Of a DNA stretch of 64,000 bases, positions 1,560-55,590 are shown one piece after another. Origin of the DNA: Lachnospiraceae bacterium (GTDB lineage Bacteria; Bacillota; Clostridia; Lachnospirales; Lachnospiraceae). Position 1 is the stretch's first letter. Each line of letters opens with the position of its first letter. The position numbers and the translations under genes were made by a program. Below the pieces are notes generated by a model. The model did no database searches. It was not told the origin of the DNA and saw only the letters and a list, made by a program, of their open reading frames with translations. Location of the stretch: NCBI GenBank assembly GCA_016281335.1, contig JAEEIK010000097.1:1-64000 (forward strand). Direction: 5' to 3'.

Positions 1560-3266
1560 ATGGCAGCAAAAAAGATCGAAGCAATTGAAATGACCGGATC
1601 ACAGATAGTGATCGAATGTCTGAAGGAACAGGGAGTGGATACGGTATTCGGCTATCCCGGAGGAACCATACTGAATATCTATGACGAACTCTATAAACAT
1701 CAGAATGAGATAAACCATGTACTGACAAGCCATGAGCAGGGGGCTGCCCATGCAGCAGACGGTTATGCAAGAGCTACCGGCAAGGTAGGCGTATGCCTGG
1801 CTACTTCAGGTCCCGGCGCAACCAACCTGGTAACAGGCATAGCGACTGCATACATGGATTCTGTTCCTATCGTTGCCATTACCGCAAATGTGGTACTGCC
1901 CTGGCTGGGTAAGGACACCTTCCAGGAAGTTGATATCGCAGGCGTGACAATGCCTATAACCAAGCATGGTTTCATGGTAAAGGATGTTACTACGCTGGCA
2001 GATACCATAAGAAAGGCTTTTGCAATTGCTAAGAGCGGACGTCCCGGACCTGTGCTCGTGGATATCACCAAGGATGTGACTGCGGCAAAATGCATGTATA
2101 CGCCTGCTAAGCCTTATATGCTTCCCCAGGAGACCAAGTATACCCAGGCAGATCTGGAGACAGCCAAGGAACTGATACTTGAGAGCAGACGTCCCTTCAT
2201 CTATGTGGGCGGCGGCGCGATCATGAGCGGCGCTACCAAAGAGGTAGCAGAGTTTGCAAAAAAGATAGATGCTCCTGTTTGCGATTCGCTGATGGGTAAG
2301 GGCGCATATGACGGAACTGCAGATAATTACACCGGCATGATAGGTATGCACGGTACCAAGACCACCAATATCGGAGTCAGCAAGTGCGATCTGCTTATCG
2401 CTCTGGGCGCCAGATTCTCTGACCGTGTGGTAAGTAATCCCAAGACCTTTGCGCCTAAGGCAAAGATACTGCATATCGATATAGACGCAGCCGAGATCAA
2501 TAAGAATATCAAGACTACAGCCTCGGTTGTCGGAGACCTCAAAGAAGTGCTGGGCAAGCTCAACAAGATGCTTCCTGTCCAGCATCACAAGGAATGGCTG
2601 GACAAGATCAAAGAGATGAAAGAGGAGATGCCTTTAAAATATCCTCATTCAAGACTTACCTGCCCCTATATTATCGAGACTCTTTACGAAGTTACTAAAG
2701 GAAAGGCTATCATCACCACAGATGTGGGACAGCATCAGATATGGGCGGCACAGTTCTATAAATATACCGAGCCCCGCACTTTTCTTTCAAGCGGCGGCCT
2801 GGGAACAATGGGTTACGGCCTCGGCGCCTGCATAGGCGCAAAGTACGGCCGTCCCGATAAGCCGGTCATAAATATTGCCGGTGACGGCTGCTTCAGAATG
2901 AATATGAACGAGCTGGCAACAGCTTCACGCTATAAGGTACCTATCATTGAGATCATCGTTAACAACCATGTTCTCGGTATGGTGCGCCAGTGGCAGAACC
3001 TCTTCTACGGCCAGAGATATTCACAGACCGTGCTCGAAGATGCTGTAGATTATGTAAAAGTTGCCGAAGGCCTTGGCTGCGAAGCCTACAGGATCACAAA
3101 GAAAGAGGAGCTGGCTCCTATACTCAAGAAAGCATTGAAGGCTAAAGGTCCTGTGGTCCTTGACTGCGTGATAAAAGAGGACGACAAGGTTTATCCTATG
3201 GTTCCCGGAGGCCAGCCTCTCGAAGCCGTCTTTGATGACGAGGATATGAAAAACAATAAGAAATGA
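1560..3266 (+). CDS. ilvB: acetolactate synthase large (catalytic) subunit
   Basis: ThDP enzyme that condenses pyruvate with pyruvate or 2-oxobutyrate, the first common step to branched-chain amino acids. At 568 residues it has the usual length. The catalytic glutamate is E59 in LTSHEQGAAHAADGY, and the ThDP/Mg motif starts at GDG (about 441-443) and runs to the NN of VNNHVLGMVRQWQ. It follows ilvD by three bases. No small regulatory subunit (ilvN/ilvH) follows; instead the next gene, a secreted protein, overlaps the stop codon as ATGA. The regulatory subunit must be upstream, elsewhere, or absent. Confidence 0.96.
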   Translation: MAAKKIEAIEMTGSQIVIECLKEQGVDTVFGYPGGTILNIYDELYKHQNEINHVLTSHEQGAAHAADGYARATGKVGVCLATSGPGATNLVTGIATAYMDSVPIVAITANVVLPWLGKDTFQEVDIAGVTMPITKHGFMVKDVTTLADTIRKAFAIAKSGRPGPVLVDITKDVTAAKCMYTPAKPYMLPQETKYTQADLETAKELILESRRPFIYVGGGAIMSGATKEVAEFAKKIDAPVCDSLMGKGAYDGTADNYTGMIGMHGTKTTNIGVSKCDLLIALGARFSDRVVSNPKTFAPKAKILHIDIDAAEINKNIKTTASVVGDLKEVLGKLNKMLPVQHHKEWLDKIKEMKEEMPLKYPHSRLTCPYIIETLYEVTKGKAIITTDVGQHQIWAAQFYKYTEPRTFLSSGGLGTMGYGLGACIGAKYGRPDKPVINIAGDGCFRMNMNELATASRYKVPIIEIIVNNHVLGMVRQWQNLFYGQRYSQTVLEDAVDYVKVAEGLGCEAYRITKKEELAPILKKALKAKGPVVLDCVIKEDDKVYPMVPGGQPLEAVFDDEDMKNNKK

Positions 3267-6200
3267 TAAATACCCGTTTTAAAAGATTACTATCAATGCT
3301 GATGTGCGTGGTGATGTGTGTTACATCTCCATGCACGTCAGTTTTTGCGTATACGGATTTTGTTGAAGAAGAAATATTCGAAGACGTTGATGAGGAAATA
3401 TGGGACAGCTTCCCGGAAGAAGAAAGCAGCAACGAAGAACTTCTGGAAGGATATATGCTTCAGGAAGCGGAAGCTATCGTAAATGAGAGCAAAGAAGAAA
3501 TGATCCGGGAAGAAGTCGGCGACGTATATGTTGAGCGCGGGGTATTATTATCAGGATATGAAAGGTTCTTTTATGATGCTCTGAAAGAAAAAATCAAGCT
3601 CGTAGCTAAAGGAAAACTTTCTTATACAAAGTTTTACATTCCTTTGCCTGAAAGTCTTAGAAAAGATTACACTGCCGAAATGCTCGGAGTAAGCAAACTG
3701 TATGAAAACGGTAGTATTACAGCCGAAGCTGAAAATGCAATGAAGGGACAATTGTATTTAGATTTCAAGAAAATTGTTCGCAGCCTGATGATGGATATGC
3801 CCTATGAACTGTATTGGTTTGATAAAGTAAAAGGTTATGGTTTTCTTCGGGATGTGACTTACAAACATAAGATTCAAAATGGTGTTGAATCTCTGAGTTA
3901 TTCTAATCCGAGTGACTATGAAGAACCTTGTTGGCGCATATACTTTTATGTATCAAGGGATTACAGTGTTAGCGGAAAACAGGAGACATGCGATTTTAAT
4001 ACTACACTCGCTCAAAAAGCAGCAAAAGCGGCAGCAAAAGCGGCAGAAGATGTTCTTCATGTTGCAGAAAGTGTTTCCAGCGATTATGCGAAATTATGCG
4101 AATATCGAAAGTTGATAAAAAACTACTCCGGATATAATAGTGAAGCGGCAAATACCAGTAAATATCCGTACGGTGATCCATGGCAAATGATACATGTCTT
4201 TGATGATGATCCAACTACTAAAGTCGTCTGTGAGGGTTTTTCCAAAGCATTTAAATTCATGTGTGATATATCTTCGTTTGCAGGTGATATTGATTGTTCA
4301 CTTGTAAGTGGTTTTATGGGAACAAAACCCTACAATCCGGAAGATTCACGTAGTACTCCTGGTTCACATATGTGGAATAATTTACGCATGGAAGACGGGA
4401 AGATATATTTAATTGACGTGACAAATGCAGGATCCGATTATGCTGCCAATTTTTTAGGAGGTGCAGAATACAGATCAAATATTATATATCCAAAGACATC
4501 AGATGCTGATGGTTCTTATACAACTAACGCATATTCATGTGGGGGATACTATTATTATTTCGATAAGCTAACTATGAATCTATATGATGATAGTGAATTA
4601 ATATACAATACTGTTCACTATAATTCGGATAATATTAAATATACTTGCAATGTAACGCTTTCAATGAACTATGCAGAAGGTGGGAGAAAACTTGTAAGTG
4701 TCTATAAAAATGAAGATGCAAAAGAGAAATTACTTGCTGAGAAGCCCATAAGAAAAGGCTATGCTTTTGAAGGATGGTATACGATAAGCGATAATCGTAT
4801 ATCCCTTGATGATCTCCCTCAAGTTGTAGTCAGCGAAAACAATTGTATTTTCTGCGCGAAGTGGCGAGAACTGGACAAATATCCGGTAACCGCTCATTTG
4901 GAGAAAGGAGCCTTTTCAGATGGTAGCATAATAAAAACTGAACTAATGTATGCAGGCTTACCTTTTTATGAGGCTTTTGAAGTACCGATACTTGATCACT
5001 ATAGTTTTACAGGATGGTATATAGATGAAAGTTGTAGTGCTAATTCTTTAATAAAAGAAAATGAACTGTTTGAGATCGAAAAAAGCAGAGATATTTATGC
5101 AGGGTGGAAAATAAAACGTTATTCGTTAACACTTAAGCTTAATGGCGGCGAATTCTCCAATGGTTCAACAAAAGATCTAAGCATTACCTATAATGCCCTC
5201 ACCAGTTTGTCGAATCCCTCAAAATATATACCGTTGAGGGCCGGCTATGATTTTGAGGGCTGGTATACGGATCAGACAGAAGGAGAACTCTATGATATAT
5301 CACAACCCATAACAAAGAGTATAACTCTATATGCGCATTGGAAAATCAAGCAGGTTATCAATCACGACGATGACGATGTCAGCGAAAATAAAACGACTAC
5401 CCCCAGCGAGAATGAGACAGAACAGCCCGAACAGCCGGTAAAACCTGACATACCCGATATTCCCGATAAACCTGAAACAGTCAGCGTGAATGGATTTTAT
5501 GCCTGCTTTGATGAAGCGGGCATGTATAAGGACGGCATCGGAAATTATCATATAGAATACGCCGGAAGCAAGCTGAGTCCTCATGTCTGTGTTTATGATA
5601 ATAAAAAGCTGCTTACGGAAGGCGTGGATTACAGCGTTAAATATGTCAATAATCTGAATGCATATGAAAAGAGCGGTAAACCGGCATATGCCGAGATAAG
5701 AGGGAAAGCAAATTTAAGCGGTTCATATAAGCTGTACTTTTTGATAGACCGGAAAGATATAAACGAAGTCGTAAGCGGAAATCTTTGTGTAAGGGAAGGA
5801 CAGGTAGCCAAGGCGGATCCTGTGCTGATGCATAACGGAAAGAAACTGAACAAAAAGAAAGACTACTCTCTGGTAATAAAAGGAAATACAGCAGAATTTG
5901 CGGGTAAGGGAAATTACCGCGGCAATATGAGTCTTCCTTTGGAGGTGCTGAGTGCTTCCGAATACAGTGAAAGAGCAATAAAAGTAAAGTTAAACGCGAC
6001 TTCCTTCAGCTATGACGGAAGCGAAAAAACGCTTAAAGATAAAAGCAATATTACAGTCATTGATAAAAACGGCCGCTACGCCGACTATGCAGTCTCTTAT
6101 TCAGCTAATGTAAATGCAGGTACCGTAAAAGTCACTATATGCGGCATAGGCAAAAACCACGGCTTCGCCAAAAAGACTTTCAGGATCAAACCCTGCAAAG

Positions 6201-6985
6201 TAAAAGGCAGTGATTCCTTTAAGATAAGATATCCCGAAAAGCTCAGCTACAGAAACGGCGGAACGAAGCCTGAAGCTATAAGCGTAAATTGCGTAGCTAC
6301 AGGGGAGATCCTTACGGAAGGAAAAGATTATAAGTTAAAGTATTCGAACTATAAAAAATGTGGGACAGCTAAAGTAAAGATCACTTTCAAAGGGAATTAT
6401 AAAGGCTCGGCATACCCTGTACTTAAATATACCATCACAAAATGTGATCTTAAAGACGCAAGAGTATATGCCGGGGATATGACATATACAAAACCCGGAA
6501 TATACTGCCCGCGTGTTGCCCTTGCAGTAGAAGGCAGTTTTGTTAGTCCGAAAGAGTACAGGCTTGAATATATGGACGACTTAAAGACGGAGGAACCTGT
6601 CTTAAATCTGGCGCTCAGCCTTACGGCAAAGGAGAAAAACTACAGCGGCAGCACAGGTAGCATCAGCTACAATATAGTAAGCAATGGGATAGATATCAAC
6701 AAAGCCAGGATAGTCTTTGCAAAAGGAACTGATAAACAGTCTTACGAGGGCAGGGGAGAACGAGTCACACTTGTGCCCGGTAAAGACTTCAAGCTAAAGA
6801 TCAACAAGTATATACAGATAGATGATGCCGCAGAGCTTGAGAATAATTTCAATTTTATCTATACGGATAATATGAAGAAAGGAACAGCATATATAATAGT
6901 TGTGCCTAAGACAGATAAATATACAGGACTTACGATTGGTAAATTCAAAATAAAGGCGGCTGATGTAAAGGATCTTATTGAATAA
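3263..6985 (+). CDS. secreted transglutaminase-like protein with InlB-type repeats
   Basis: A 1240-residue exported protein. Residues 1-30 are a signal peptide (basic MINTRFKRL, hydrophobic core, VFA), followed by an acidic E/D-rich stretch. Residues about 315-395 form a transglutaminase-like core with a plausible Cys-His-Asp triad: C323 (VVCEGF), H369 (GSHMWN) and D385 (IDVTNAG). Three InlB-type beta-grasp repeats follow, marked by GYAFEGWYT, HYSFTGWY and GYDFEGWYT, then an acidic/proline linker with VSENK, then about five Ig-like or MBG-like repeats marked by EGKDY and GKGNYKGS-type motifs. No sortase motif is present. The start overlaps the ilvB stop (ATGA) and lacks a strong ribosome binding site, so translation is probably coupled. 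The part from about 3.6 to 5.3 kb is visibly more AT-rich than the rest. Whether it crosslinks, hydrolyses or only binds is unknown. Confidence 0.85.
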   Translation: MINTRFKRLLSMLMCVVMCVTSPCTSVFAYTDFVEEEIFEDVDEEIWDSFPEEESSNEELLEGYMLQEAEAIVNESKEEMIREEVGDVYVERGVLLSGYERFFYDALKEKIKLVAKGKLSYTKFYIPLPESLRKDYTAEMLGVSKLYENGSITAEAENAMKGQLYLDFKKIVRSLMMDMPYELYWFDKVKGYGFLRDVTYKHKIQNGVESLSYSNPSDYEEPCWRIYFYVSRDYSVSGKQETCDFNTTLAQKAAKAAAKAAEDVLHVAESVSSDYAKLCEYRKLIKNYSGYNSEAANTSKYPYGDPWQMIHVFDDDPTTKVVCEGFSKAFKFMCDISSFAGDIDCSLVSGFMGTKPYNPEDSRSTPGSHMWNNLRMEDGKIYLIDVTNAGSDYAANFLGGAEYRSNIIYPKTSDADGSYTTNAYSCGGYYYYFDKLTMNLYDDSELIYNTVHYNSDNIKYTCNVTLSMNYAEGGRKLVSVYKNEDAKEKLLAEKPIRKGYAFEGWYTISDNRISLDDLPQVVVSENNCIFCAKWRELDKYPVTAHLEKGAFSDGSIIKTELMYAGLPFYEAFEVPILDHYSFTGWYIDESCSANSLIKENELFEIEKSRDIYAGWKIKRYSLTLKLNGGEFSNGSTKDLSITYNALTSLSNPSKYIPLRAGYDFEGWYTDQTEGELYDISQPITKSITLYAHWKIKQVINHDDDDVSENKTTTPSENETEQPEQPVKPDIPDIPDKPETVSVNGFYACFDEAGMYKDGIGNYHIEYAGSKLSPHVCVYDNKKLLTEGVDYSVKYVNNLNAYEKSGKPAYAEIRGKANLSGSYKLYFLIDRKDINEVVSGNLCVREGQVAKADPVLMHNGKKLNKKKDYSLVIKGNTAEFAGKGNYRGNMSLPLEVLSASEYSERAIKVKLNATSFSYDGSEKTLKDKSNITVIDKNGRYADYAVSYSANVNAGTVKVTICGIGKNHGFAKKTFRIKPCKVKGSDSFKIRYPEKLSYRNGGTKPEAISVNCVATGEILTEGKDYKLKYSNYKKCGTAKVKITFKGNYKGSAYPVLKYTITKCDLKDARVYAGDMTYTKPGIYCPRVALAVEGSFVSPKEYRLEYMDDLKTEEPVLNLALSLTAKEKNYSGSTGSISYNIVSNGIDINKARIVFAKGTDKQSYEGRGERVTLVPGKDFKLKINKYIQIDDAAELENNFNFIYTDNMKKGTAYIIVVPKTDKYTGLTIGKFKIKAADVKDLIE

Positions 6986-14173: not shown

Positions 14174-17100
14174 ATGCGCAACTTGAAAGTTAGGCGCCTG
14201 ATCGCGATGATAATGACCGTCATCACAGTCGGAGCCCAGTCGCCCATTACTGCCATGGCAGGTGAGCTGACTGAAGACAGCACAGCAGCTGAAGTTGTTC
14301 AGGATGAAGAGGAGACATCCGAAACAGCAGAAGCAGAAGAAGTAGCAAAAGAAAACGTTCCGGATGAGACTGTAGTCAGCGGCAACGAAGCCGAAGAAGA
14401 GACTGCTCCGGAAAACGAAGTAACTGTTGACGAAGAAGGAGAAAGTGAAACCACAACTGAAGGATTCGCTCTTACGGCTGCAGATTATGCTGCAAAGCAG
14501 GCTATAAGAGATCACGGTGTACTGGATGATTTCGCCTCTCTTACTGAGGGCGTTGATTATACCAAAAACGAAATGATCTTCATGGCCGACAGCCTTGAGT
14601 ATGCAGAAGCTGTAGCAGCTGCTTACGGTGCAAGCCTCAAGTCATATTCATATGGTGTTGCCGTAATGGATATGAGCGGTTCCGAACTCAGCATAGGTGA
14701 TGCTTATGCTCTCGGCGCAGATGCAAACAGCATGCTTCCTGTAGTTGAACCCAACTATATCACCATACTTGACGACCCTGACGTAGATGCAGAAGCGGAA
14801 GCAAAGAAGAAAAAAGACGGTCCTCTTGTTTCAAAGCAGACACAGTGGGATGATTTCGGAACTTATGATCCCCTGCTTAATCCTGCGGATCCCAACTTCC
14901 AGTGGTGGCATCAGTATATCGACACCTACGGAGCCTGGGGTGTATTTGACAGCTCATACAGACCCAATCTGGGCAGCGATATCAAGGTCGCTGTCATAGA
15001 CAGCGGTGTCACAGGAAACCACGAAGAGCTCAGAGGCCATACGGAACTTAAGGATATAGGCCTCGGTACAACGGATGAAAACGGACACGGAACCCATGTT
15101 GCCGGAATCATAGGCGCAAGCATAGCCAACTACAACGGCGGCGCCGGCGTAGCTCCCGGAATACAGATCCTTGGATACAGAGCATCCGATGCAAGAGGAA
15201 GCTTTGCTGAAGCCGATACCATAAGAGCGATCAATGCCGCAATTACTGACGGTGCAAACATCATTAACATGAGTCTTGGAGGTCCGATCTACACTTCGGC
15301 CGAAGACAGCGCAATACAGGCAGCTTATACCGCTAATGTTACAGTAGTAGCTGCTGCAGGCAACGAATCAAAGAACGGTTACAGCTATCCGGCAGCTTAT
15401 GATCATGTTATCTCTGTAGGCGCTTCCGAAGAGGGCGGCAATAAAACACAGTTTTCAAACTTCGGCAGCTGGGTAGACGTAATGGCTCCCGGTGCCAACA
15501 TGCGTTCATGTTATCCCGGTGACGGCAATGATACCTATTTCAATATGCAGGGTACATCACAGGCCTGCCCTGTTGTTGCCGGAGCCTGCGCACTCTATAT
15601 GTCGGCTTTCGGCAAGGATGTAACTCCCGATGAGATGGAAGCCGTACTGAAGAGAAGCACTACCAAGTGCAATACCCCTGGCGCAAGTGCCAGCGGTATC
15701 ATCAACATAGCCAAGATGTTTGACGGGGATACGACAGCTCCCCAGATCGATATGCTCGGCGAAGACAACGACAGTGTGATCGCTACCGCAGAAAGCGGTT
15801 CTTACGCAAGCTGTGATGCAACCGTAAAGGGAAGCCAGTATATCAAGTTTACGGGCAAGGGATTTAACGGCGATCTTGAAGCAAATAACAATACAACTTA
15901 TTACATTACAGTTGACGGAAGCAATCCTGACCCTCATAACAGCGCAGGCAGTTATTCCACCTACTATCCCGACGACTATAAGGTATACAGGGTAGGTACC
16001 GGCAGCTCATACAGGATCCGTGCGGGATATCTGTTAAGACTTGCCAAGTATAAGGGCATTTCCGCCACTAATGTAACTGTCAAAGTAGTGGCTGTAACAG
16101 GACGCGGAGTTATCAGCGGTGTTACGTCTATGTCTTTGACCATAGATCCTGAGGTCAGATATTACATTTCCGTATACAGCGACGGTTATTACAGTGATCC
16201 CGTGCTTTCACAGGGAGGCACATTACAGTTAAATGCCACGGTTTACGGTGAATCTACATATCTGTTATATACTTTGACGGATTTAGTAGACCAGAGCGTA
16301 AAATGGAGCATCGATTCTCAGAGTGGCTGTGGTGGCTCCTCGATCAGCGATACAGGTCTGCTCACTATAGGAGGCAGTGATTACGGAACATTAAGCGTAA
16401 AAGCAGAATCTACAGCTTATCCCGATACAGCAGGCTACTATAGTTTAACTGTTGCCAACAGAGCTCTTGTATCAAGCGTAGAAGTTACCGAAGAAACCCA
16501 GACTCTGCTCAGTGATGAGATAGTCATCAGGGAATGGGGCGAGGTTCAGCCTGAGATCAAAGTAAAGATGACTCTTGCTGACGGCTCAGTATTAACTGAC
16601 AATCTTCCTTTCATTTCCTGGTCCAGCTCGGATTCATGGGTAGCAGAGGGAAGAATGGATGAAAACGGAAAATATGTAGTATATCCCAAGTCAAAAGGAT
16701 CCTGCACGCTTACCGGTACCGTACAGGACGGTTCAAATGTACAGTTCACCGTTAATGTAAGAGTACGTTCTCTGGTATATGCATTTGTAACCAATAACAA
16801 CCAGACAGAAATAGCCGCAGGCAAGAGCGCAAAGTACAAATTCACACCGTACTCACATACACAGTATAAGATGTATTTCGAGTATTATTACAATAATTAC
16901 AGAAGTATCTTTAATAATTACGGTCCCAGCAATACTTCATTCACCTGGTCGATCAAGGATTATAACGGTAATTCAGATATTGAGATCCCCGGTGTGACCT
17001 TAAAGAACGGCAAACTTAAGGTTGCAAAATACGTAGCTGAAGGCACTACTTTCAGTGTAGCTGCAACCGCAGCTGATGAGGGGCATACAGTTGGCTTTGT

Positions 17101-18115
17101 TCCTGTAAAGGTGACCGGAGGCGGTTCCAACACTATCACCGTTACCACAGATGCTACCGATCCTGCTTATGACATAAAAGTCAATAAGAAAGGGTCCGTA
17201 ACGAGCGTTCAGCTTTATATCCGCAATGTCGCTACAAGCGAAGTAAACGAGAAACAGATCAAACTTAAAGCTGTAGCCAGCAACGGTGCAACGGTCCGCT
17301 GGTCCAAGAACAACAGCAATACACGTTGGGAAAGCAATTACGAGGAAGAACCCGGTGTTATCACAATTACGTCTTATTCATACACGGGCAACACAACTTA
17401 TACGGCTTATGTGAGTGACGGCAGCAAGAAGAAAGCCAAAGTAAAAGTTAATGTCATAATCCCTGTGGCTTCAATGCAGATCACGGCTCCCGACCTCGGA
17501 ACCTATGCAAATACAGCAAAGGGCGCAGATACACTTGTTCCTGAATCCGGAATAACCCAGACTCTTATGTCTTCAGGCTATTCATCTAACTTTAAGGTAG
17601 CTTTCGGCGATGAGTATGGAACCGCCTCAAAGAAAAAGATCAAGTGGGAAGCACAGGCAGGATATATGAACAACGGTGTGTTCACCGAAGATCCTTCGCT
17701 GGCAGGTCTGTATAAGTTTAAGAACGGCAAACTCAAACTTTCCAACGGCTTTACAACGGATACTACTATGAATAAGGGCGTGCTCATAACCGCTACCGCA
17801 ACAGACGGCACGCAGCTTAAAGCCCAGAAATTCGTGATAGCATGCAAGAAGACAACGTTCATAAAGCTTTACGGCACAGATAAGGAGAACGGTCTGATCA
17901 TAGTAGAAACCGACGGAACCGCACTCGAATTCGAGATAACGACCAATAATCCCGAAGTTGCATGCCCTGAATATTATGATGCAGGCTTAAGCCCCGACGG
18001 AAATATACTGGTTGCATTTGCGGTATATTATCCGAAGCAGACACCGGGTAATTGGGTGTTCAATATCAAAGCTAAGGACGGCAGCAAGAAATCAATATCA
18101 TTTAAGAATTACTGA
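14174..18115 (+). CDS. secreted subtilisin-like serine protease (S8) with long Ig-like tail
   Basis: A 1313-residue exported protease. Signal peptide (about 1-29, ending ITAMA), then an acidic linker with VSGNE, then a propeptide (about 130-195, ending VEPNY) that normally folds and inhibits the enzyme until cleaved. The S8 catalytic domain spans about 240-515 with D276 (AVIDSGV), H305 (GHGTHVAG) and S462 (GTSQACP), all present. The remaining 800 residues are beta-rich modules, including BIG2-like segments (VKWSIDSQSG, WSSSDSWVAEG), with Tyr/Asn-rich spacers. No sortase or SLH motif is seen, so the mode of retention is unknown. GGAGG upstream of 14174 supports the start. Confidence 0.93.
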   Translation: MRNLKVRRLIAMIMTVITVGAQSPITAMAGELTEDSTAAEVVQDEEETSETAEAEEVAKENVPDETVVSGNEAEEETAPENEVTVDEEGESETTTEGFALTAADYAAKQAIRDHGVLDDFASLTEGVDYTKNEMIFMADSLEYAEAVAAAYGASLKSYSYGVAVMDMSGSELSIGDAYALGADANSMLPVVEPNYITILDDPDVDAEAEAKKKKDGPLVSKQTQWDDFGTYDPLLNPADPNFQWWHQYIDTYGAWGVFDSSYRPNLGSDIKVAVIDSGVTGNHEELRGHTELKDIGLGTTDENGHGTHVAGIIGASIANYNGGAGVAPGIQILGYRASDARGSFAEADTIRAINAAITDGANIINMSLGGPIYTSAEDSAIQAAYTANVTVVAAAGNESKNGYSYPAAYDHVISVGASEEGGNKTQFSNFGSWVDVMAPGANMRSCYPGDGNDTYFNMQGTSQACPVVAGACALYMSAFGKDVTPDEMEAVLKRSTTKCNTPGASASGIINIAKMFDGDTTAPQIDMLGEDNDSVIATAESGSYASCDATVKGSQYIKFTGKGFNGDLEANNNTTYYITVDGSNPDPHNSAGSYSTYYPDDYKVYRVGTGSSYRIRAGYLLRLAKYKGISATNVTVKVVAVTGRGVISGVTSMSLTIDPEVRYYISVYSDGYYSDPVLSQGGTLQLNATVYGESTYLLYTLTDLVDQSVKWSIDSQSGCGGSSISDTGLLTIGGSDYGTLSVKAESTAYPDTAGYYSLTVANRALVSSVEVTEETQTLLSDEIVIREWGEVQPEIKVKMTLADGSVLTDNLPFISWSSSDSWVAEGRMDENGKYVVYPKSKGSCTLTGTVQDGSNVQFTVNVRVRSLVYAFVTNNNQTEIAAGKSAKYKFTPYSHTQYKMYFEYYYNNYRSIFNNYGPSNTSFTWSIKDYNGNSDIEIPGVTLKNGKLKVAKYVAEGTTFSVAATAADEGHTVGFVPVKVTGGGSNTITVTTDATDPAYDIKVNKKGSVTSVQLYIRNVATSEVNEKQIKLKAVASNGATVRWSKNNSNTRWESNYEEEPGVITITSYSYTGNTTYTAYVSDGSKKKAKVKVNVIIPVASMQITAPDLGTYANTAKGADTLVPESGITQTLMSSGYSSNFKVAFGDEYGTASKKKIKWEAQAGYMNNGVFTEDPSLAGLYKFKNGKLKLSNGFTTDTTMNKGVLITATATDGTQLKAQKFVIACKKTTFIKLYGTDKENGLIIVETDGTALEFEITTNNPEVACPEYYDAGLSPDGNILVAFAVYYPKQTPGNWVFNIKAKDGSKKSISFKNY

Positions 18116-18230: not shown

Positions 18231-19967
18231 ATGAAGAATTCCGGTCTTAAAAGGATCCTTGCTTTTTCAATGATGTTTGTCATGTTCATCGGATGTTTTG
18301 ATATGCCGGTAAAGGCAGAAGAGAGCATATCGGAAAATGAAGTAATAATGAGCGAAGAGGAAGAGGATATCCTTCCTGACGAGAACTTCACAGAAGTAGA
18401 CTTTGATGATACATGCATGGAGGAAGAAACAGAAGAAGAGACTAACGAGGATGTTTTCGAGGAGATCGTTCCCGATGCTGAAGAAGCTATTATTATAGAT
18501 GAAGCAAGTAAAACAGGCTGTGAAATACAGGAGGTCGGAAGCAAAAAGAAAGAAGAACCGGAGCCTACGGTATCTTCGATGTCACTTATATCCATACCCA
18601 GCAAGCTGATATACAGAAAAGGCGATGATCTGGATCTGACAAACGGTAAAATCTATGTAGTATATGATGACGGAACCGAAGCTTATCTTAACATGAAGGC
18701 TGCCATGGTCAGCAATTACGATAAGACAAAAGCAGGGCGACAGATCGTGCACATCAATGCAGGTGATAAGTATGTTCAGTTTGATGTTGATGTTCTCAAT
18801 GTAGATGCGGGTGATGACAGTAAGTTTGTAATAGGCGACCAGGGCTTCAGCACGCTGACAAAGGCGCTTAATTGGATAAAGAATAACAGAGACAAGACTA
18901 CAGATTATGAGATAATAATGTTCTCCAACTGTCTCTTAAGAGCTCTGCCCACAGTGACAAAAGCAAGATCCATAACCATAACAGCCAATACATATTATAT
19001 GGAATTCTATGCGGTGGATAAGGACAAAATAACCTTCGGCTGTGATACCACTTTAAACGATATGACGATCAAGTGTCTCAGCGCTTATGAAGACAAGACT
19101 AAATACCGCACAAGAATGAAAATAAAGGCCAAGAAGAATCTGACTCTTAACAATTGTGATTTCATCTCCTCCGGCCTGACCATAAGCGGCCGAAATAAAA
19201 AAAGCGTAGTCATCAATAAGAGCACGGGTATATATAAGCTGAAAGGCTTCACTAATACCACAGTTAACGGTGATCTGGAGATAAAATACAGTCTGGATAC
19301 GAAGCGCCTGGTAATGAATCCGGGAAGCAGGGTAATACTTTCGTCATTAGCTAGACTTTCCGTCACCAAACAGCTTACCTGCGAACGCGATTCACAGATA
19401 GTTCTCGGAAAGGATTTCAAACCTCTTGAGATCACCGGGAATATGGGAGGGACCGTAAAGCTTGTAAGCGACTGGCCGGCCAAAGAAGGCGACCTTATAC
19501 TTAATCTTAAGTATTCGGATATACTGCCTTATTTTGACATTGACGGCATTGTGCCTCATGACAATTGCACTTATGAACTGGTAAAAGAGAAGGACGAAGC
19601 CCGTCTGTACGGCCATAAGTTCAGCTATGCAGGCAAAAGCTATACCAACTGGAAATCGGTCATAAAAGCCGTTAATAAAGACGGAAACAAGGAAACTCCT
19701 GTCGAGATAAAGCTCCTCGGAGATGTGGATATACGGGATAAGCTGACGATGCCCAAGGGTAAGAAGATGAGCAGCTTTACCCTGAACGGAAACGGGCACG
19801 AGCTGATATTCAGAGAAAATATAAAACTGGTCAAAGATACGACGTTCAGGAATATAAAGCTAAAAGGCCTGGATGATGAAGACTTCGTGACAAGGTATTA
19901 TATATATAAAAGAGACCATGAACTTCAGCTTGATAATGCCGATCTTGGACTCGGAGTAGTGAAATAG
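18231..19967 (+). CDS. secreted protein with Ig-like domain and duplicated beta-rich repeats
   Basis: A 578-residue exported protein of unknown function. Signal peptide about 1-29 (FDMPVKA), then an acidic linker with ISENE. Residues about 120-190 resemble a group 3/4 bacterial Ig-like domain (LIYRKGDDLDLTNGKIYVVY). The rest appears as two related units: GFSTLTKALNWIKNN followed by strand-rich sequence, and SYTNWKSVIKAVNKDG followed by LTMPKGKKMSSFTLNGNGHE. The regular short strands and Asn/Gly turns suggest a right-handed beta-helix like those in surface adhesins or carbohydrate-active proteins; this is inference. The gene is flanked by terminators on both sides, so it is monocistronic. Confidence 0.72.
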   Translation: MKNSGLKRILAFSMMFVMFIGCFDMPVKAEESISENEVIMSEEEEDILPDENFTEVDFDDTCMEEETEEETNEDVFEEIVPDAEEAIIIDEASKTGCEIQEVGSKKKEEPEPTVSSMSLISIPSKLIYRKGDDLDLTNGKIYVVYDDGTEAYLNMKAAMVSNYDKTKAGRQIVHINAGDKYVQFDVDVLNVDAGDDSKFVIGDQGFSTLTKALNWIKNNRDKTTDYEIIMFSNCLLRALPTVTKARSITITANTYYMEFYAVDKDKITFGCDTTLNDMTIKCLSAYEDKTKYRTRMKIKAKKNLTLNNCDFISSGLTISGRNKKSVVINKSTGIYKLKGFTNTTVNGDLEIKYSLDTKRLVMNPGSRVILSSLARLSVTKQLTCERDSQIVLGKDFKPLEITGNMGGTVKLVSDWPAKEGDLILNLKYSDILPYFDIDGIVPHDNCTYELVKEKDEARLYGHKFSYAGKSYTNWKSVIKAVNKDGNKETPVEIKLLGDVDIRDKLTMPKGKKMSSFTLNGNGHELIFRENIKLVKDTTFRNIKLKGLDDEDFVTRYYIYKRDHELQLDNADLGLGVVK

Positions 19968-20136: not shown

Positions 20137-21204
20137 ATGAAAAAGAGAGTACTGGCTTTAATGATGTCAGCAGTAATGCTCCTTAGCGAGACATTACCTG
20201 TAATGGCAACAGAAGACACAGTCGTTGTATCGGAAGACGAAGCTGTTATCGAAGAAGTTGCTGATGCGGAAGCTGACGAGGAAATCGAAGATGTTGTATT
20301 TGATTCCGAGATCGTAGTAGAGGATCTTCCTGCTGCAGTTGACGAGACAGCTGACGCAGAGCTGGCTGCAGAAGCAGCAACCGAACTTATCGACGGTCTT
20401 GAAGTAGTTGATAAGCAGGTTGAGATCAACGAAGAAGCAGGTTTGGAAATAGTTACGCTTACTGCAAAGATCTCTCCCGATGCAGCAACAGTTGCAGATG
20501 CCGGAACTTACTGGCAGCTCGGTGGCGAGAGCACACTGAACATTGCAGGCGGCGCATTTATGGCAAATGGCAAGTCATACGATCTGAATACTAACGTTAT
20601 GTATTACAGCATTGTCAATTACCGTGCAAGAAACATCAAACCTGTTGATGACCTGAAGGCAGAAGTTGTAAAGAGCGGAATCTATGATCTGGCTAAGGAT
20701 CTTACTGTTACAGGCGCTTTCAATCCTGAGGTGATCAAATGGAAATTCAGCGCTAAAAAGGCTAAAAATGCAGGTGCTGCAGCTGCTTCCTTTACCGTAA
20801 AGGCATCCGTTGATAAGAATATAGCAAAGTCACTGGGCATTACAGGCAAATCACTTAAGACGCTTAAGAAGGCTGCAAAGCAGCTCAGCAAGGTTGCCAA
20901 GAAGACAAAGGCTTTATTCACTATAAATCCCGCTAACCTGCAGGCACTGAACGCTTTCGGTGATGTATATATCAGCATAACCATGTATTACAATCTTTTC
21001 ACCAGAGCTTTTGTTAAATGGGGCAAATTTGCATTCCGTGTAAGACTTGAAGAAAATGCTCCTACAGACAAGACTAAATGGAAAAAGCTTCCCGCAAAGG
21101 ATTTCAAGAAGAAGATAGTCAAAGCAGGAAACGGCTGCAACATAACCATCACCCCCAAGAATAAGAACCTGGTCGGTGATGCTTATACCTATGAATTGAG
21201 ATAA
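20137..21204 (+). CDS. small secreted protein with the shared C-terminal module
   Basis: A 355-residue exported protein of unknown function. Residues 1-24 are a signal peptide (ETLPVMA), followed by a very acidic linker (about 25-90) with VSEDE. Residues about 142-355 are a lysine-rich module also found at the end of the papain-like protease immediately downstream: NYRARNIKP matches SYRARKINP, ITGKSLKTLKKA matches ISGKNLKALKKA, and FTINPANLQAL matches FNITPVNAWEL. A more distant copy ends the leucine-rich repeat protein at 51.9 kb. Here the module makes up most of the mature protein with no catalytic head, so it may be a binding or anchoring unit. The family was not recognised. Confidence 0.75.
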   Translation: MKKRVLALMMSAVMLLSETLPVMATEDTVVVSEDEAVIEEVADAEADEEIEDVVFDSEIVVEDLPAAVDETADAELAAEAATELIDGLEVVDKQVEINEEAGLEIVTLTAKISPDAATVADAGTYWQLGGESTLNIAGGAFMANGKSYDLNTNVMYYSIVNYRARNIKPVDDLKAEVVKSGIYDLAKDLTVTGAFNPEVIKWKFSAKKAKNAGAAAASFTVKASVDKNIAKSLGITGKSLKTLKKAAKQLSKVAKKTKALFTINPANLQALNAFGDVYISITMYYNLFTRAFVKWGKFAFRVRLEENAPTDKTKWKKLPAKDFKKKIVKAGNGCNITITPKNKNLVGDAYTYELR

Positions 21205-21214
21205 TATGAAACAT

Positions 21215-21248
21215 AAAGTAAGCGGCAATTTAATTGTCGCTTACTTTT
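21215..21248 (+). terminator. hairpin terminator between the module proteins
   Basis: 14-bp stem from AAAGTAAGCGGCAA to TTGTCGCTTACTTT with one G-T pair and a five-base loop; the T tract is short, so termination may be partial and the protease gene may be transcribed by read-through. Confidence 0.75.
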
Positions 21249-21273
21249 AACTTTTTAAAGAAGGAGAACGAAA

Positions 21274-24036
21274 GTGAAAGCGAAACTGATCAGAAACAGA
21301 CTGACAGCCCTCATTATGTCATTTATCATGATGACCGGTCAGGTAATGCCTGTAATGGCTTCCGGTGATAATGATGAAACCGTTGCTGTCGCAACAGAGC
21401 AGGGTGAAAACGAAGAAGAAACTTCTGAAGCAAAAGAAGTCATTGAGATGCCTGCCGAGCTTTTCAATATCGGCGTTGACGGCGAGGAAGAGATCGGGAC
21501 TCTTAATAATGCAGCAGATGATGCTCTCGCTATCTATGATATAGCTGAAGAAGCAGATGCAGATGAGATAGTCGGCGAGGATGAGGAAGATGCCGGAGAT
21601 GTTAACGCAGATCCCAGGCTTGGTGGTCTGCCTGTAGGCAATCCCGACCTGAAACCCAGCACAGTAGACCAGAGCATATCCTATAAGACGATAATGGAAA
21701 AGGTTGTAGACGGCGCAGAGTTTGCTTCCATTGCTACTGAAGTAAAACCCGGCGGAGCAGAAGCAACCGATGCCGCTTTCCCTTTTTCAAGTAACGAGTC
21801 TGCAAAAATCACAGCATATTTTGACGAGAATTTCCCCGTTGCCCGTGACCAGAACCCTTACGGTACCTGCTGGGCTCATTCCACACTTGCAGCAAACGAA
21901 TTCAATATGATAAAGCACAGCAAAGCTGCCAAGACAGTTGATACTTCAGAACTTGCGCTTGCATACTGGACTTCATATCAGGGAACTGCAGGTCCTGCAG
22001 GCGATAACGGCAGTACTGTTAAGCGCAAATATGCAAAGAGCAAGCAGAACAACTTCCTTGATTCAGGCGGAAACTCCATAACTGCAGCCATGACTCTGTT
22101 CCAGCAGAGAGGTATCACGGCCGAAGCCGATGTCCCTTACTCTGACTGCGCAAAGGTTTATGAAAGCGAAAAGATCGACAGCGCTCTTGAAAGAAAAGAT
22201 GCTTATTATGTATTGAATTATCGCGAATATGATCTTGATAACAACCCGAAACTTGTAAAAGAGGGTATAATTGAAAATGGCGGACTTTCTGTGGCATTCT
22301 GCTGGGCTGAAGAAGCCTATAATGCAACTTACAATTCATTCTACATGGATAAGGAAGTCAACATAAATCACTTTGTAACACTGGTTGGCTGGGATGATAA
22401 TTTCTCCAAGAGCAATTTTTCCGGCGCTTATGGCGGCAAGCCCTCCAATAACGGTGCATGGCTCGCAAGAAACAGCTGGAATCAGGACAGCAGTAAGGCT
22501 CAGATGGATTATACAGAGTACTTCTGGATATCTTACGAAGACATGTCTATCTGCAATGTTGCCGGCTTTGATGCAGTACCTGCAAGCGAGTACGAATATG
22601 ATAATGCATATTATTATGATACCCAGGTATACAATCCCCAGTATTATAATTCATCTACTGCCGCTAACGTTTACAAAGTAAGCGTATGCGATGGCGGAGA
22701 GATACTTTCCGCTGTAAGTTTCAACCTTTTTGATGTCAAGTCCACCGGTACCGATTATACTATCGAAGTATACAGAAATATTCCCGATGGCAGCGATCCT
22801 TCCGCCGGAACCAAGGTGGATTCGATGACTACCACCGGCACAATATACATGAGCGGTACCTACACCATACCTCTTAAAGATGAAGTAAGACTTGATGCCG
22901 GTGAAAACTTCGCCGTAGTCGTAACACGTAACGACAACAAGACTGTTTCCGTAGCTACTGACTTCAACTGGAACGGCTGGAATCTTGTTTCCGATATGAA
23001 AGCGCAGGCAGGTCAGTCATTCCTTAAATCCGGTTCAGCATGGAAAGACACAGTAAATGACGGTAACTTTGTAATTCATGCGCTGACAAAGAACGGCGGC
23101 GCTTATGTAAAGATCAGTCCCAGAAGCGCGCAGATCCCCGAAGAAGGAGAGGTTACCTTAAGCGCAGAAGCTTTTGACGAGAGCAATAACAAGGTAGCAG
23201 GAGCTACTTTCACCTGGGCAAGCGACAATACCGCAGTTGCTACGGTTGCAAACGGTGTTGTAAAGGCTGTAAGCATAGGTAAAGCTACTATTACTGCAAC
23301 ATATAATGGTCTGACAGGAAAATGCCAGGTAACCGTAGGCGATGACGGAACCACATCTTCAACCGTCAATTACGGAACCACTAATGTTAACGGCGTGGAA
23401 ATGCCGCTGACAGCAAATATCAGATATAAGAACACCATCAGCTACAGAGCCAGAAAGATCAACCCCAAGAATGATCTTCTTGCAGATGTTACCAGCAGCA
23501 GTCTGATCGATATTGCAAAATCTCTTTCTGCAATGCCCGGAAGCGTGACAAAAGACGTGATCAGCTGGAAATATACCGCCAAGAAGAACAAGAATGCAAA
23601 CAGCGGTTCATATTTCACCGTAAAGGCTGTCGTAGCAGGCAAAGCCATTACAAACAGCCAGGGCATAAGCGGCAAGAACCTTAAGGCCCTCAAGAAAGCT
23701 GTTTCAGCATTCAACAAGAATGCAAAGAAAACAGAAAACAGGATTTATTTCAACATTACTCCCGTGAATGCCTGGGAACTTGCCAACAACGGAAATATGA
23801 TACCTATCGTAACAGTTAACAGATTTACCGGCGCATTCGTTAAAATGTCGCATATACGCGTTTGGCTGGAAGATACGCCTGCGCCTTCGACCTCAAATAA
23901 CGGCTGGAAGAACTGGAAAAAACTGTCAAAGAAGGATATCAAGGTAAAGAAGAGGGCAGGCACCAGAAGGACCTATGATATTATACCCAGTCAGAAGAAT
24001 GTGATCGGTCCTAATTTCTGGTACAGTTGGGAATAA
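21274..24036 (+). CDS. secreted papain-like cysteine protease (C1) with BIG2 and shared C-terminal module
   Basis: A 920-residue exported protease beginning at GTG 21274, which is set by AAGGAG nine bases upstream and the basic signal peptide MKAKLIRNRLTAL. An acidic linker (about 30-110) precedes the peptidase domain (about 165-440). Catalytic residues are visible: Q193 (oxyanion), C199 in GTCWAHST, H366 in NHFVTLVGW and N400 in ARNSWNQ. A beta-rich domain follows, then a BIG2 domain (about 610-690; FTWASDNTAVATVANG), then the unnamed module (about 706-920) shared with the preceding gene. The tandem position of two module-bearing genes suggests duplication of a tail onto different heads. Confidence 0.9.
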   Translation: MKAKLIRNRLTALIMSFIMMTGQVMPVMASGDNDETVAVATEQGENEEETSEAKEVIEMPAELFNIGVDGEEEIGTLNNAADDALAIYDIAEEADADEIVGEDEEDAGDVNADPRLGGLPVGNPDLKPSTVDQSISYKTIMEKVVDGAEFASIATEVKPGGAEATDAAFPFSSNESAKITAYFDENFPVARDQNPYGTCWAHSTLAANEFNMIKHSKAAKTVDTSELALAYWTSYQGTAGPAGDNGSTVKRKYAKSKQNNFLDSGGNSITAAMTLFQQRGITAEADVPYSDCAKVYESEKIDSALERKDAYYVLNYREYDLDNNPKLVKEGIIENGGLSVAFCWAEEAYNATYNSFYMDKEVNINHFVTLVGWDDNFSKSNFSGAYGGKPSNNGAWLARNSWNQDSSKAQMDYTEYFWISYEDMSICNVAGFDAVPASEYEYDNAYYYDTQVYNPQYYNSSTAANVYKVSVCDGGEILSAVSFNLFDVKSTGTDYTIEVYRNIPDGSDPSAGTKVDSMTTTGTIYMSGTYTIPLKDEVRLDAGENFAVVVTRNDNKTVSVATDFNWNGWNLVSDMKAQAGQSFLKSGSAWKDTVNDGNFVIHALTKNGGAYVKISPRSAQIPEEGEVTLSAEAFDESNNKVAGATFTWASDNTAVATVANGVVKAVSIGKATITATYNGLTGKCQVTVGDDGTTSSTVNYGTTNVNGVEMPLTANIRYKNTISYRARKINPKNDLLADVTSSSLIDIAKSLSAMPGSVTKDVISWKYTAKKNKNANSGSYFTVKAVVAGKAITNSQGISGKNLKALKKAVSAFNKNAKKTENRIYFNITPVNAWELANNGNMIPIVTVNRFTGAFVKMSHIRVWLEDTPAPSTSNNGWKNWKKLSKKDIKVKKRAGTRRTYDIIPSQKNVIGPNFWYSWE

Positions 24037-51925: not shown

Positions 51926-54900
51926 TTACTTGGTGATATCAACAGCCTTCCTGCTACCCTTGAAGTTCTGTCCCGCAAGAGCCGTTACCTCGGCTTTCTT
52001 TCCTGCCGCATTCGTAACCTTAATGGTAAAGCTCTTGGCTGCCTTCTTAGCGCTGAAGGTATAAGTCTTGGCCTTCTTGAGCCCGGGTACCTTTACCTTT
52101 ATCTTAAGGCTCTTAAGCTTCTTAATGCTTCCGTCCTCTTTAAGCTGGAGTTCTCCGTTCTTAAATGCCGCTTTCAGCACCACGCTTTCCACTGTCTTGC
52201 TGTCGCTGAGGTTCACGGGAACTATGTCAAACTTATAAGGATTATCCTTAAACTTCTGGTTGAGCTCTTTGATCATGCTCTGCAGAGCTTTCTTGTTATC
52301 GCCCTTTATTTTAGCTTTCTTGGCCACCTTAGCATTTAGCTTAAGTTTTACATAGAAGCTTCCCTTGGTGTTGACATTCTTATCCTTGCTTATCACATAA
52401 GTGGTGCTTATAAGTTTTTTGAAGTCCACATCTTTGTTTAAATCCTTGATCGCTTTATCCAGTCCCGAAATATTGACTTTAGCGATCTCGCCATCACTTA
52501 CAAGCACTGCCAGCTGTGCCTTGGTTATCTTTTTGCCTGTCCAGTTCACTGCCGCAGGATAAGTAATATCGACCTTTACGGTGACATCAGCATCATTGAT
52601 CTTAGTGGTCTTGTTTTCCGAAACTTTTATCGGCTTAGCTGTGTCAGGCTGTACATCATCCTGATTATTCAGTTCCTCATCTTCAGGCGTAATGTCTTGC
52701 GGCTTCTTAACGGTCACTTCACAGCTTGCCTCATGTTTACCGTCCTGTGAAACAGCCTTGATCACAGCCTTTCCTTCTTTGAGGCCGGTTACTTTACCGT
52801 TTGCTACTCTTGCTATCGTATCATCCGATGAAGACCAGCTGACTGTCTTATTCGATGCATTTTCAGGCGCGTATGTAACTTTAAGGGTAATATTTCCACC
52901 TATGGCTACTACCGCAGAAGTTCTGTCTAACTTTATGCCTGTTAATGATACACCTCCGACTATGACATGGCAGCTTGCTTTCAGACCGCCATCCACGGCC
53001 GTCGCTGTAATGTCCGCTTCGCCCACTCCGACAGCAGTCACATTTCCATATTCGCTGACTGTGGCCACGTTCTCATTACTGCTTGACCAGGTAACATCCT
53101 GATTGCTGGCATATCTCGGTTCTATAGTGTAATATAACCATTTCTTTTGACCGGCCTGAAGGTTAATGCTCTCGTATTCCAGACTGATGCTCTTTATCGG
53201 ATTGTATATCTTCGTGTTAAAGTGGAATACAAAAACATCCATCCCATTATCATCAGGCGAATTAAGTACTCCGCTAAATTCAATGTAATCCCAGTCCTCT
53301 CTGTCCCCGACATAATATATATCTTTAAGACAAAGAGGAAACGCTGTCCAATCTAATTTTCTCATATAGCCGGGAATTGTAATGCTCGTCATAGCAGTTC
53401 CGCTAAACACACAATATTTTAATTCTTCCAATTCGTAAGGAAGACGTACATCGGCAAGTTTACTGCAGTATTCAAACGCGCTTTCACCAATATTTTTTAA
53501 TTCGTTTGGCAGGACAATGCTTTCTATACCTGTGCAATATCTAAAAGCGGATTTTTCTATCTTATACAGGCCCTCAGGCAGTATGATTTCAGTCAGGCCT
53601 TCACAGCGGCCAAATGCTAAATATTCAATAGTGTTAACACTTTCCGGTACTGTAAAGCTTCCTTTTTTGCCGCCCGGGCAGGCAAGCAGTTTAGTTTTGT
53701 CCTTATTATATAGTACGCCATCTACTGTCAGATAAGTGGCATTTTCATCAGCCACAATAATATCTGTCAGGCTTTCACAGTAATAAAAAGCAGCTTCACC
53801 GATAGTTTTAACCCCTGCCGGTATAGTTATCTTTGTCAGCAGCTTGCATGCATGAAAAGCCTCCTTATCAATATCCGTTACACTATCGGGAACCACATAG
53901 TTTCCGGATATAGTTGCCGGAACCTTTATAAGCTTTGTTTTACTTCTGTTATATAATACACCGTCTATTGAAGTAAAATACTGATTTGCAGGATCAACAT
54001 TAATAGCTGTCAGGCTGTCACACCATTGAAAAGCAGACGAGCCGATTGTTTTTACCTTGCTTGGTATATCAATGCTTTTTAATTTGCTGCAACTCTGGAA
54101 AGCCTGGCTTCCTATACCTGTCAGGCTGAGGGGCAGCTCTATTTCTTCCATATTTACACATTCACTGAATAATAAAAGTGATATACTGGTTACTCCCTCT
54201 TCTATCACTGCCTTCTTAACATCTTCAGCTTTCCAGCGATGTTCCATGGAAGTTTTGAAATAACTCACATTGCCCTTGCCACTGATCACCAAAAGACCAT
54301 CATCATAAAGAACCCATTCTCCGTCACTTCCTCTGTCATCCATTCCCCATATGCTCATATCTTTCATGCAATGAAGCACAACGCCTTCGGGCAAGTTATA
54401 TCCCATAGCATCCCATTGTTCTCTGGTTCCCTTGTAAAAGATTTCCTTCAAGTTTTCAGGGAATACATACGATCCCAAAGCTGTCACTGATGCAGGAATA
54501 ATAATACTCTCTAAGAAGTCGCAGCTGGTAAACGCATTATCCCCTATGCTTTTTACACTTTCAGGAATAATTACATCAGTCAGACTGATGCATCCTTCAA
54601 ACGCTGAAACGCCAATCCCTGTTATACAGTTTCCTATAACAATCTTTTTTATTTTAGGTAATTGGGTCCACCATGGCCTATTACTGATTATCCCGTTTCC
54701 GCTTACATTCAGCAGGCCGTTACTGTATAAGGTCCAATCCCCGCTATAATTCCAGGTTCCTTCTTTTAAAATATAATGGATGACATCCTCGGGCAGATCA
54801 TATCCCAGGCTCTCCCATTGTTCTTTAGTTCCGTCAAAGAATACATCAGTCAGTTTATCGCAATACTTGAACGCATCCTTTCCGATACTTGTTACAGTAG

Positions 54901-55549: not shown

Positions 55550-55590
55550 CTTGATCGCCTCCTCAGGAATCAATAAAAATTTTCAGCTAT

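Follow-up and report, generated by a model that had tools for sequence, protein, structure and literature searches.

A C-terminal module shared by secreted proteins

The window analysed here, the first 64,000 nucleotides (forward strand) of contig JAEEIK010000097.1 from a Lachnospiraceae bacterium (assembly GCA_016281335.1), encodes three secreted proteins with a common C-terminal module of approximately 215 residues, which we suggest may be a lineage-specific surface tether. W1, a 355-residue secreted protein, comprises a signal peptide and a stretch of approximately 100 acidic residues with a net charge of −30 (20137–20559, forward strand, from the reading frame and a charge count), followed by module copy 1 (20560–21204), which by tail alignment and a structure model reaches the stop codon. 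W2, a papain-like protease on the same strand, has a head with a signal peptide, Peptidase_C1, Lectin_like and Big_2 by Pfam scan (21274–23388) and then module copy 2 (23389–24036), which likewise reaches the stop codon and was located by tail alignment and the genome profile search. W3, a leucine-rich repeat (LRR) protein on the reverse strand, joins a head with a signal peptide, LRR_5 repeats and two Big_2 domains (52598–55573, Pfam scan) to module copy 3 at its C-terminus (51926–52597, from alignment, profile scores and a structure model). The open reading frames given in the initial annotation for W1 (20137–21204) and W2 (21274–24036) were confirmed, and that of W3 is read as 51926–55573. 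The proposal that the module forms nearly the whole mature chain of W1 was not borne out; it makes up about two thirds, with the very acidic residues lying upstream.

The likeness of the W1 and W2 tails was evident in a pairwise alignment (42% identity over 219 columns, 117 bits), and the W2 and W3 tails are 28% identical over 137 residues (pairwise E 3e-6), while the W1 and W3 tails, compared pairwise alone, fall below significance (E 0.14). Doubt over the pairwise similarity of W3 is removed by a W1-type profile from which W3 was excluded (A7), since it scores the W3 tail at 54.6 bits, well above the maximum of 4.0 among 2000 composition-preserving shuffles. A W3-type profile (A3) scores W2 at 36.4 bits and W1 at 24.1 bits, with shuffle maxima of 12.7 (1935 of 2000 shuffles scored) and 8.3 (1986 of 2000 scored), respectively. 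With profile scores so far above shuffles, the W3 tail holds its place as the weaker member that it had been taken for, and on sequence evidence the three tails are one homologous family.

As had been suspected, the module is unnamed, with no significant match in Pfam or NCBIfam. W1 had no match in Pfam, NCBIfam or PADLOC at E ≤ 1, and ten modules compared with Pfam and PHROGs gave scattered weak matches only. Across 42 modules, no Pfam family matched more than six members (best E 0.0031, among the matches listed, 25 of 61 families) and no NCBIfam family more than two (best E 2.6e-4, among the matches listed, 25 of 41 families), the best NCBIfam match being to DNA polymerase III tau, which we take as an effect of composition. 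PDB sequences searched with a 10-row profile gave a best E of 0.23, and a literature search aimed at the module, among open-licence PubMed Central (PMC) papers, found nothing on it.

AlphaFold2 models were built from rows of the window and related loci. The W1 module reached a best predicted local distance difference test score (pLDDT) of 82.9 and a predicted template modelling score (pTM) of 0.73, with the five models ranging from 82.9 to 55.4 in pLDDT, and the W3 module a pLDDT of 72.1 and a pTM of 0.59, with its last 20 residues below 50. Compared by the order of helices and strands, the two models agree over the first ~155 residues (a pair of strands, one strand accompanied by short helices, a second pair of strands, a long helix and one more strand); past that point strands predominate and the prediction is less certain, most of all in W3. 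The expectation of a shared fold stands as far as this order of elements goes, but both alignments contain the same nine rows, so the likeness of the models does not independently prove a single fold. The conserved N-terminal part includes a basic helix, net positive in 41 of 42 copies. Foldseek found nothing in the PDB at E ≤ 0.001 (best 0.31 for W1 and 0.11 for W3), nor was there a match at that threshold in a viral fold library; as modelled, the fold is one that Foldseek does not recognise in the PDB.

The sequences do invite one comparison, that the module is an elaborated form of the immunoglobulin-like (Ig-like) repeat YTGKxIxP...NNKNAG...GNYTG, which occurs in secreted proteins of this genus, and is a mere cap to the chain with no specific function. 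YDG/Big-type Ig-like repeats occur in some module proteins, the YTG and GNYTG motifs look alike by eye, some members starting with YTGKxIxP and ending with GNYTG as the repeats do, and the last ~50 positions of the module profile match such a repeat in G620 (E 2e-4; 2.4e-6 in a small set). However, profile–profile comparison by hhalign gave a probability of 9.8% (E 0.0033, one comparison), and the module is ~2.5 times longer, is modelled with a long helix and proved basic in 42 of 42 aligned copies, and we find this explanation very doubtful. The window also encodes, at 3260–6982, a large secreted protein whose Ig-like repeats are of the generic YTG...GNYTG form.

Distribution, heads and charge of the module

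The family extends beyond the three copies of the initial annotation. The window's own genome (G000; 3.23 Mb in 159 contigs), searched with the 10-row profile at E ≤ 0.1, has 18 matching places, which resolve into 15 full copies at C-termini, a half-length copy and a broken one represented by two of the matches. The broken copy (L015:6511–7183; G000:C136:62531–63041) is split by stop codons and is either decayed or misassembled. In a sample of the genus the module is present in 12 of 35 genomes, with 22 matching places, many of them partial, in G022; ten of the 67 places from this search, mostly weak or fragments, were left out of the copy census (six from G022, two from G016, and one each from G018 and G017).

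Samples of the family placed the module in the window's genus and two other genera, with matches in 4 of 299 genomes (G000, G001, G085 and G266) in the first and 3 of 397 in the second, and a sample of the order gave 3 of 392, one by a 52-position fragment only; these counts are lower bounds, since only part of each genome's candidates was scored. The two outside genera match weakly in the family samples and clearly with a 42-row profile (E 7e-30 and 4e-16, in a small set of fetched loci). Named relatives are Lachnospiraceae bacterium NK4A179 and the metagenome-assembled genomes RUI469 and RUI086. The genus, family and order samples together largely agree with the expected restriction to Lachnospiraceae, and mostly to one genus of that family. 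Spread by mobile elements was rejected, as searches of plasmids with the W3 tail, of phages with the W1 module and of viral contigs with profile A3 gave no match. Two loci in a bin of another Lachnospiraceae genus (L049 and L051, G085:C25) encode proteins with C-terminal module-like tails and long Asn-x-Thr/Ser-rich linkers, which may resemble methanogen adhesins in their archaeal look; they may reflect archaeal exchange or a mis-binned contig.

The full-length module is C-terminal in all but one of the copies read: in 12 genomes (fetched loci), 42 of 43 copies finish within 0–5 residues of the stop codon and the other finishes 20 residues short of it, in a census whose profile rows had been extended to the ends of their reading frames. 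Pfam scans showed the heads to differ, with Peptidase_C1 with Lectin_like, LRR_5, LRR_4, Beta_helix_3, Flg_new and Big_2, and further with YDG, DUF6273, DUF3472, a purple-acid-phosphatase N domain and InlB-type domains, so that, as first proposed, unrelated heads (proteases, LRRs, beta-helices, InlB-type and Big_2 proteins) all bear the module. The simplest members, here termed W1-type, are proteins of roughly 330–410 residues with a signal peptide, an acidic stretch, the module and nothing else; they occur in 10 of the 35 genus genomes, one of which has three such genes in a row. By eye, a V/I-S-E-N/D motif lies in the acidic start just past the signal peptide and recurs in many of the W1-type proteins, the half-module proteins described below and neighbouring secreted proteins.

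All 42 aligned modules are basic (isoelectric point (pI) 9.4–10.2, net +13 to +30), and the heads are acidic in each of the 41 cases long enough to compute (pI ≤ 5.8). As a control, the last 220 residues were counted in 65 other secreted proteins of the fetched loci, chosen by a simple secretion rule of our own and including some overlapping copies; their median charge is −3, and three of the 65 reach +13 or more, two of which look like one G022 protein and the third of which is the window protein beginning at 55683. The same count over 48 module proteins gave a median of +21.5 (range −24 to +31), the low end of which probably reflects the half-module proteins, since these end in something other than the module. 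A basic tail is therefore typical of the module and not unique to it.

This opposition of charge could also suggest an export, folding or processing device, in which the acidic stretch and the basic module of one chain would pair with each other, and the module would be cleaved off or shed once the protein had been secreted. W1-type proteins have the required layout, with an acidic N-terminal stretch (net −25 to −43) upstream of a basic module (net +17 to +28), but in other members heads of up to ~1770 residues part the two ends. We know of no such acidic/basic export-processing system, and consider this explanation highly improbable.

Alternative tails on the protease head and half-length modules

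Proteins with the W2 head were surveyed in the 35 genus genomes at E ≤ 1e-20, giving 37 rows in 14 genomes and, after identical sequences were collapsed, 35 proteins. Four of these genomes lack the module, and there five of the six proteins end in choline-binding-type repeats (in G013, G015 and G019) and one does not (G005); in the ten module-bearing genomes, the module terminates two of 29 (one in the window, the other in G022) and choline-binding-type repeats terminate none. Pfam, in a scan that covered the G013 protein and two G019 proteins, identifies the G013 repeats as Choline_bind_4 (E 2.1e-8), and names these only; those of G015 and G019 were joined to them by an iterated profile. The three repeat-bearing genomes fall within a five-genome group that adjoins the eight main W1-bearing genomes, with tree support of 96/96 for the joint group and 84/86 for the eight alone. 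This swap of tails on one protease head is the best evidence for a tether, yet it is small and comes from one head family. As a separate observation, G019 has an array of adjacent secreted proteins with the same choline-binding-type terminal repeats (L171, G019:C11), and 10 such proteins were counted in the G019 loci read.

The swap also bears on whether the module might instead be the business end of these proteins, a binding domain for an outside target such as plant fibre, mucin or another microbe. Adhesin-like LRR, InlB-type and Big_2 proteins among the heads, and copies that are almost stand-alone, would suit such a role; however, the full module is terminal, wall-type repeats replace it on one head family, and it showed no fold match and no significant carbohydrate-binding family (among the matches listed, 25 of 61 Pfam families). 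A role of this sort seems to us distinctly unlikely.

A further form of the module is the N-terminal part alone (profile positions ~10–150), present in an LRR protein of nine genomes, of which one was fetched per genome. These proteins consist of a signal peptide, an acidic stretch, the half module, LRR_4 repeats and an SLH-like C-terminus. A protein scan reported SLH in three of the nine at 20.5, 19.7 and 15.8 bits, against a cut-off of 20.8, and did not report it at E ≤ 0.1 in the other six, one of them cut; the G016 half-module protein does pass the cut-off when the genome is searched, at 24.7 bits, and for the rest the SLH-like assignment is tentative. Attachment through SLH was rejected as an explanation, the cut-off being passed in only 4 of the 35 genus genomes, once on this G016 protein.

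Nine of the 35 genomes have both a W1-type protein and the half-module LRR protein, one has the W1 type only, none has the half-module protein only and 25 have neither. On an Obg and RpoB tree that covers 34 of these genomes, six of which (G000 and G022 among them) are represented by Obg alone, no more than 2 and 3 changes are required for the two traits, and descent can account for the co-occurrence; it amounts to 2 independent pairs, with a sign-test median p of 0.5, and functional linkage of the two proteins was dropped as a statistical result.

These observations are central to another possibility, that the module is a protein–protein assembly domain through which module proteins polymerise or dock, with W1-type proteins as a matrix and the LRR/SLH-like half-module protein as its wall-bound receptor. 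The joint presence of the two proteins in nine genomes, with the half-module protein never alone, would be expected from such an arrangement, as would the tandem W1-type genes (three in a row in one genome), the tandem of W1 and W2 in the window and in a relative, and the SLH score of the G016 protein. Yet shared ancestry can explain the co-occurrence, G001 and G017 bear module proteins with neither the W1 type nor the half-module protein, and the SLH scores of the protein scan, where there were any, did not exceed the threshold, and we regard an assembly domain as unlikely, if worth keeping in view. A more elaborate version, in which the module is a new fold underlying a lineage-specific S-layer-like matrix, seems quite improbable: W1-type proteins would coat the wall, the LRR/SLH-like half-module protein would pin the coat, and enzymes and adhesins would plug in by their C-terminal modules, giving an attachment code of its own that expanded within one genus and has choline-binding-type tails in its place in relatives.

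A putative surface tether

We suggest that the module is a lineage-specific, putative non-covalent surface tether, and put the probability of this at about one half. The initial annotation had proposed a surface attachment or sorting domain, and attachment is the best reading, given the basic charge of the module and the choline-binding-type wall repeats that take its place on the protease head in relatives lacking it. Sorting is less likely, as no tripartite sorting signal was seen and sortase matches occur in 34 of 35 genus genomes regardless of the module; sortase-dependent sorting was therefore rejected. We infer that the module binds a ligand at the cell surface, where it would retain varied secreted proteins non-covalently, much as GW, WxL or choline-binding tails do, and that W1-type proteins, with little beyond an acidic stretch and the module, would coat or cross-link the wall.

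By sequence comparison the family is unrelated to those tails. The reported lack of LPxTG, SLH and choline-binding features was upheld: LP.TG occurs in 3 of 42 modules, with no hydrophobic segment after it on reading the L014 and L017 tails; SLH had no Pfam match in W1, W2, W3 or ten modules, the SLH-like matches lying outside the module at the C-terminus of the half-module LRR proteins; and no choline-binding family was found among Pfam families at E ≤ 1 (W1–W3) or E ≤ 10 (ten modules), nor any choline/CW-binding profile in the 42 modules (among the matches listed, 25 of 61 weak Pfam families). In the L014, L017 and L073 modules an LPGTG begins 17 residues before the C-terminus, a trap for sortase-motif scans.

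Wall-attachment domains have been reviewed and new ones are expected, and none of the families named in the available part of that review matched the module (PMC5817068). According to the same review, choline-binding/CWB1 repeats attach through wall polysaccharide (PMC5817068). In some sister species such repeats (Choline_bind_4, CW_binding) terminate the papain/Lectin_like head just where the module does in W2, but they are short, at ~20 residues, whereas the module is a single basic domain of ~215 residues, and the two do not match. GW modules (SH3-8) are C-terminal and give non-covalent retention via teichoic acid (PMC10335673); they are multiple repeats whereas the module is single, and no GW/SH3-8 Pfam match was found (W1–W3 and ten modules; 42 modules among the matches listed). 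WxL is a C-terminal domain of ~120–190 residues found on many extracellular proteins and binding peptidoglycan non-covalently (PMC5817068). Its [LIV]TWxL motif occurs in none of 42 modules and any WxL in three, with no Pfam match. The SLAP domain (PF03217) of bacterial S-layer proteins is basic, wall-binding and common to several surface proteins of lactobacilli. It belongs to a different lineage and had no Pfam match in the same sets as GW. PMC3836491 names PF03217 and deals with S-layer-associated proteins.

Several observations weigh against a tether. In the conserved gene order subtilase, Big_3 protein, W1, W2, found in the window and in G022, the first two genes (a subtilase at 14174–18115 and a Big_3/pectate-lyase-like protein at 18231–19967, both forward strand, by Pfam scan and gene-order comparison) encode secreted proteins of the same neighbourhood without the module. 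Of the 29 protease homologues in module-bearing genomes, 27 (one a cut frame) have other tails and neither device, which means that the module does not serve as a general anchor in those genomes. The two G019 proteins compared with Pfam had no choline-binding match at E ≤ 0.01. The secreted VWA/Big_2/Flg_new protein at 55683–59960 lacks the module and has an equally basic tail (+21, pI 9.9). Finally, the N-terminal half copy does not sit easily with a purely C-terminal anchor, as the N half is there used without being a terminal tether.

The module is a real, unnamed, lineage-restricted domain family and, as a putative tether, would belong to a known functional kind. With no recognised relative in the PDB, its structure is worth solving, and while the terminal domain is unnamed one cannot predict whether the secreted proteins of this group are released to the medium or kept at the cell surface. 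If the tether reading is true, a tether with 15 full copies in a single genome would allow proteases, adhesins and repeat proteins of the genus to be assigned to the surface. It would then be a genus-level attachment tag, and would suggest that one and the same enzyme is tethered to the wall by different means in related species.

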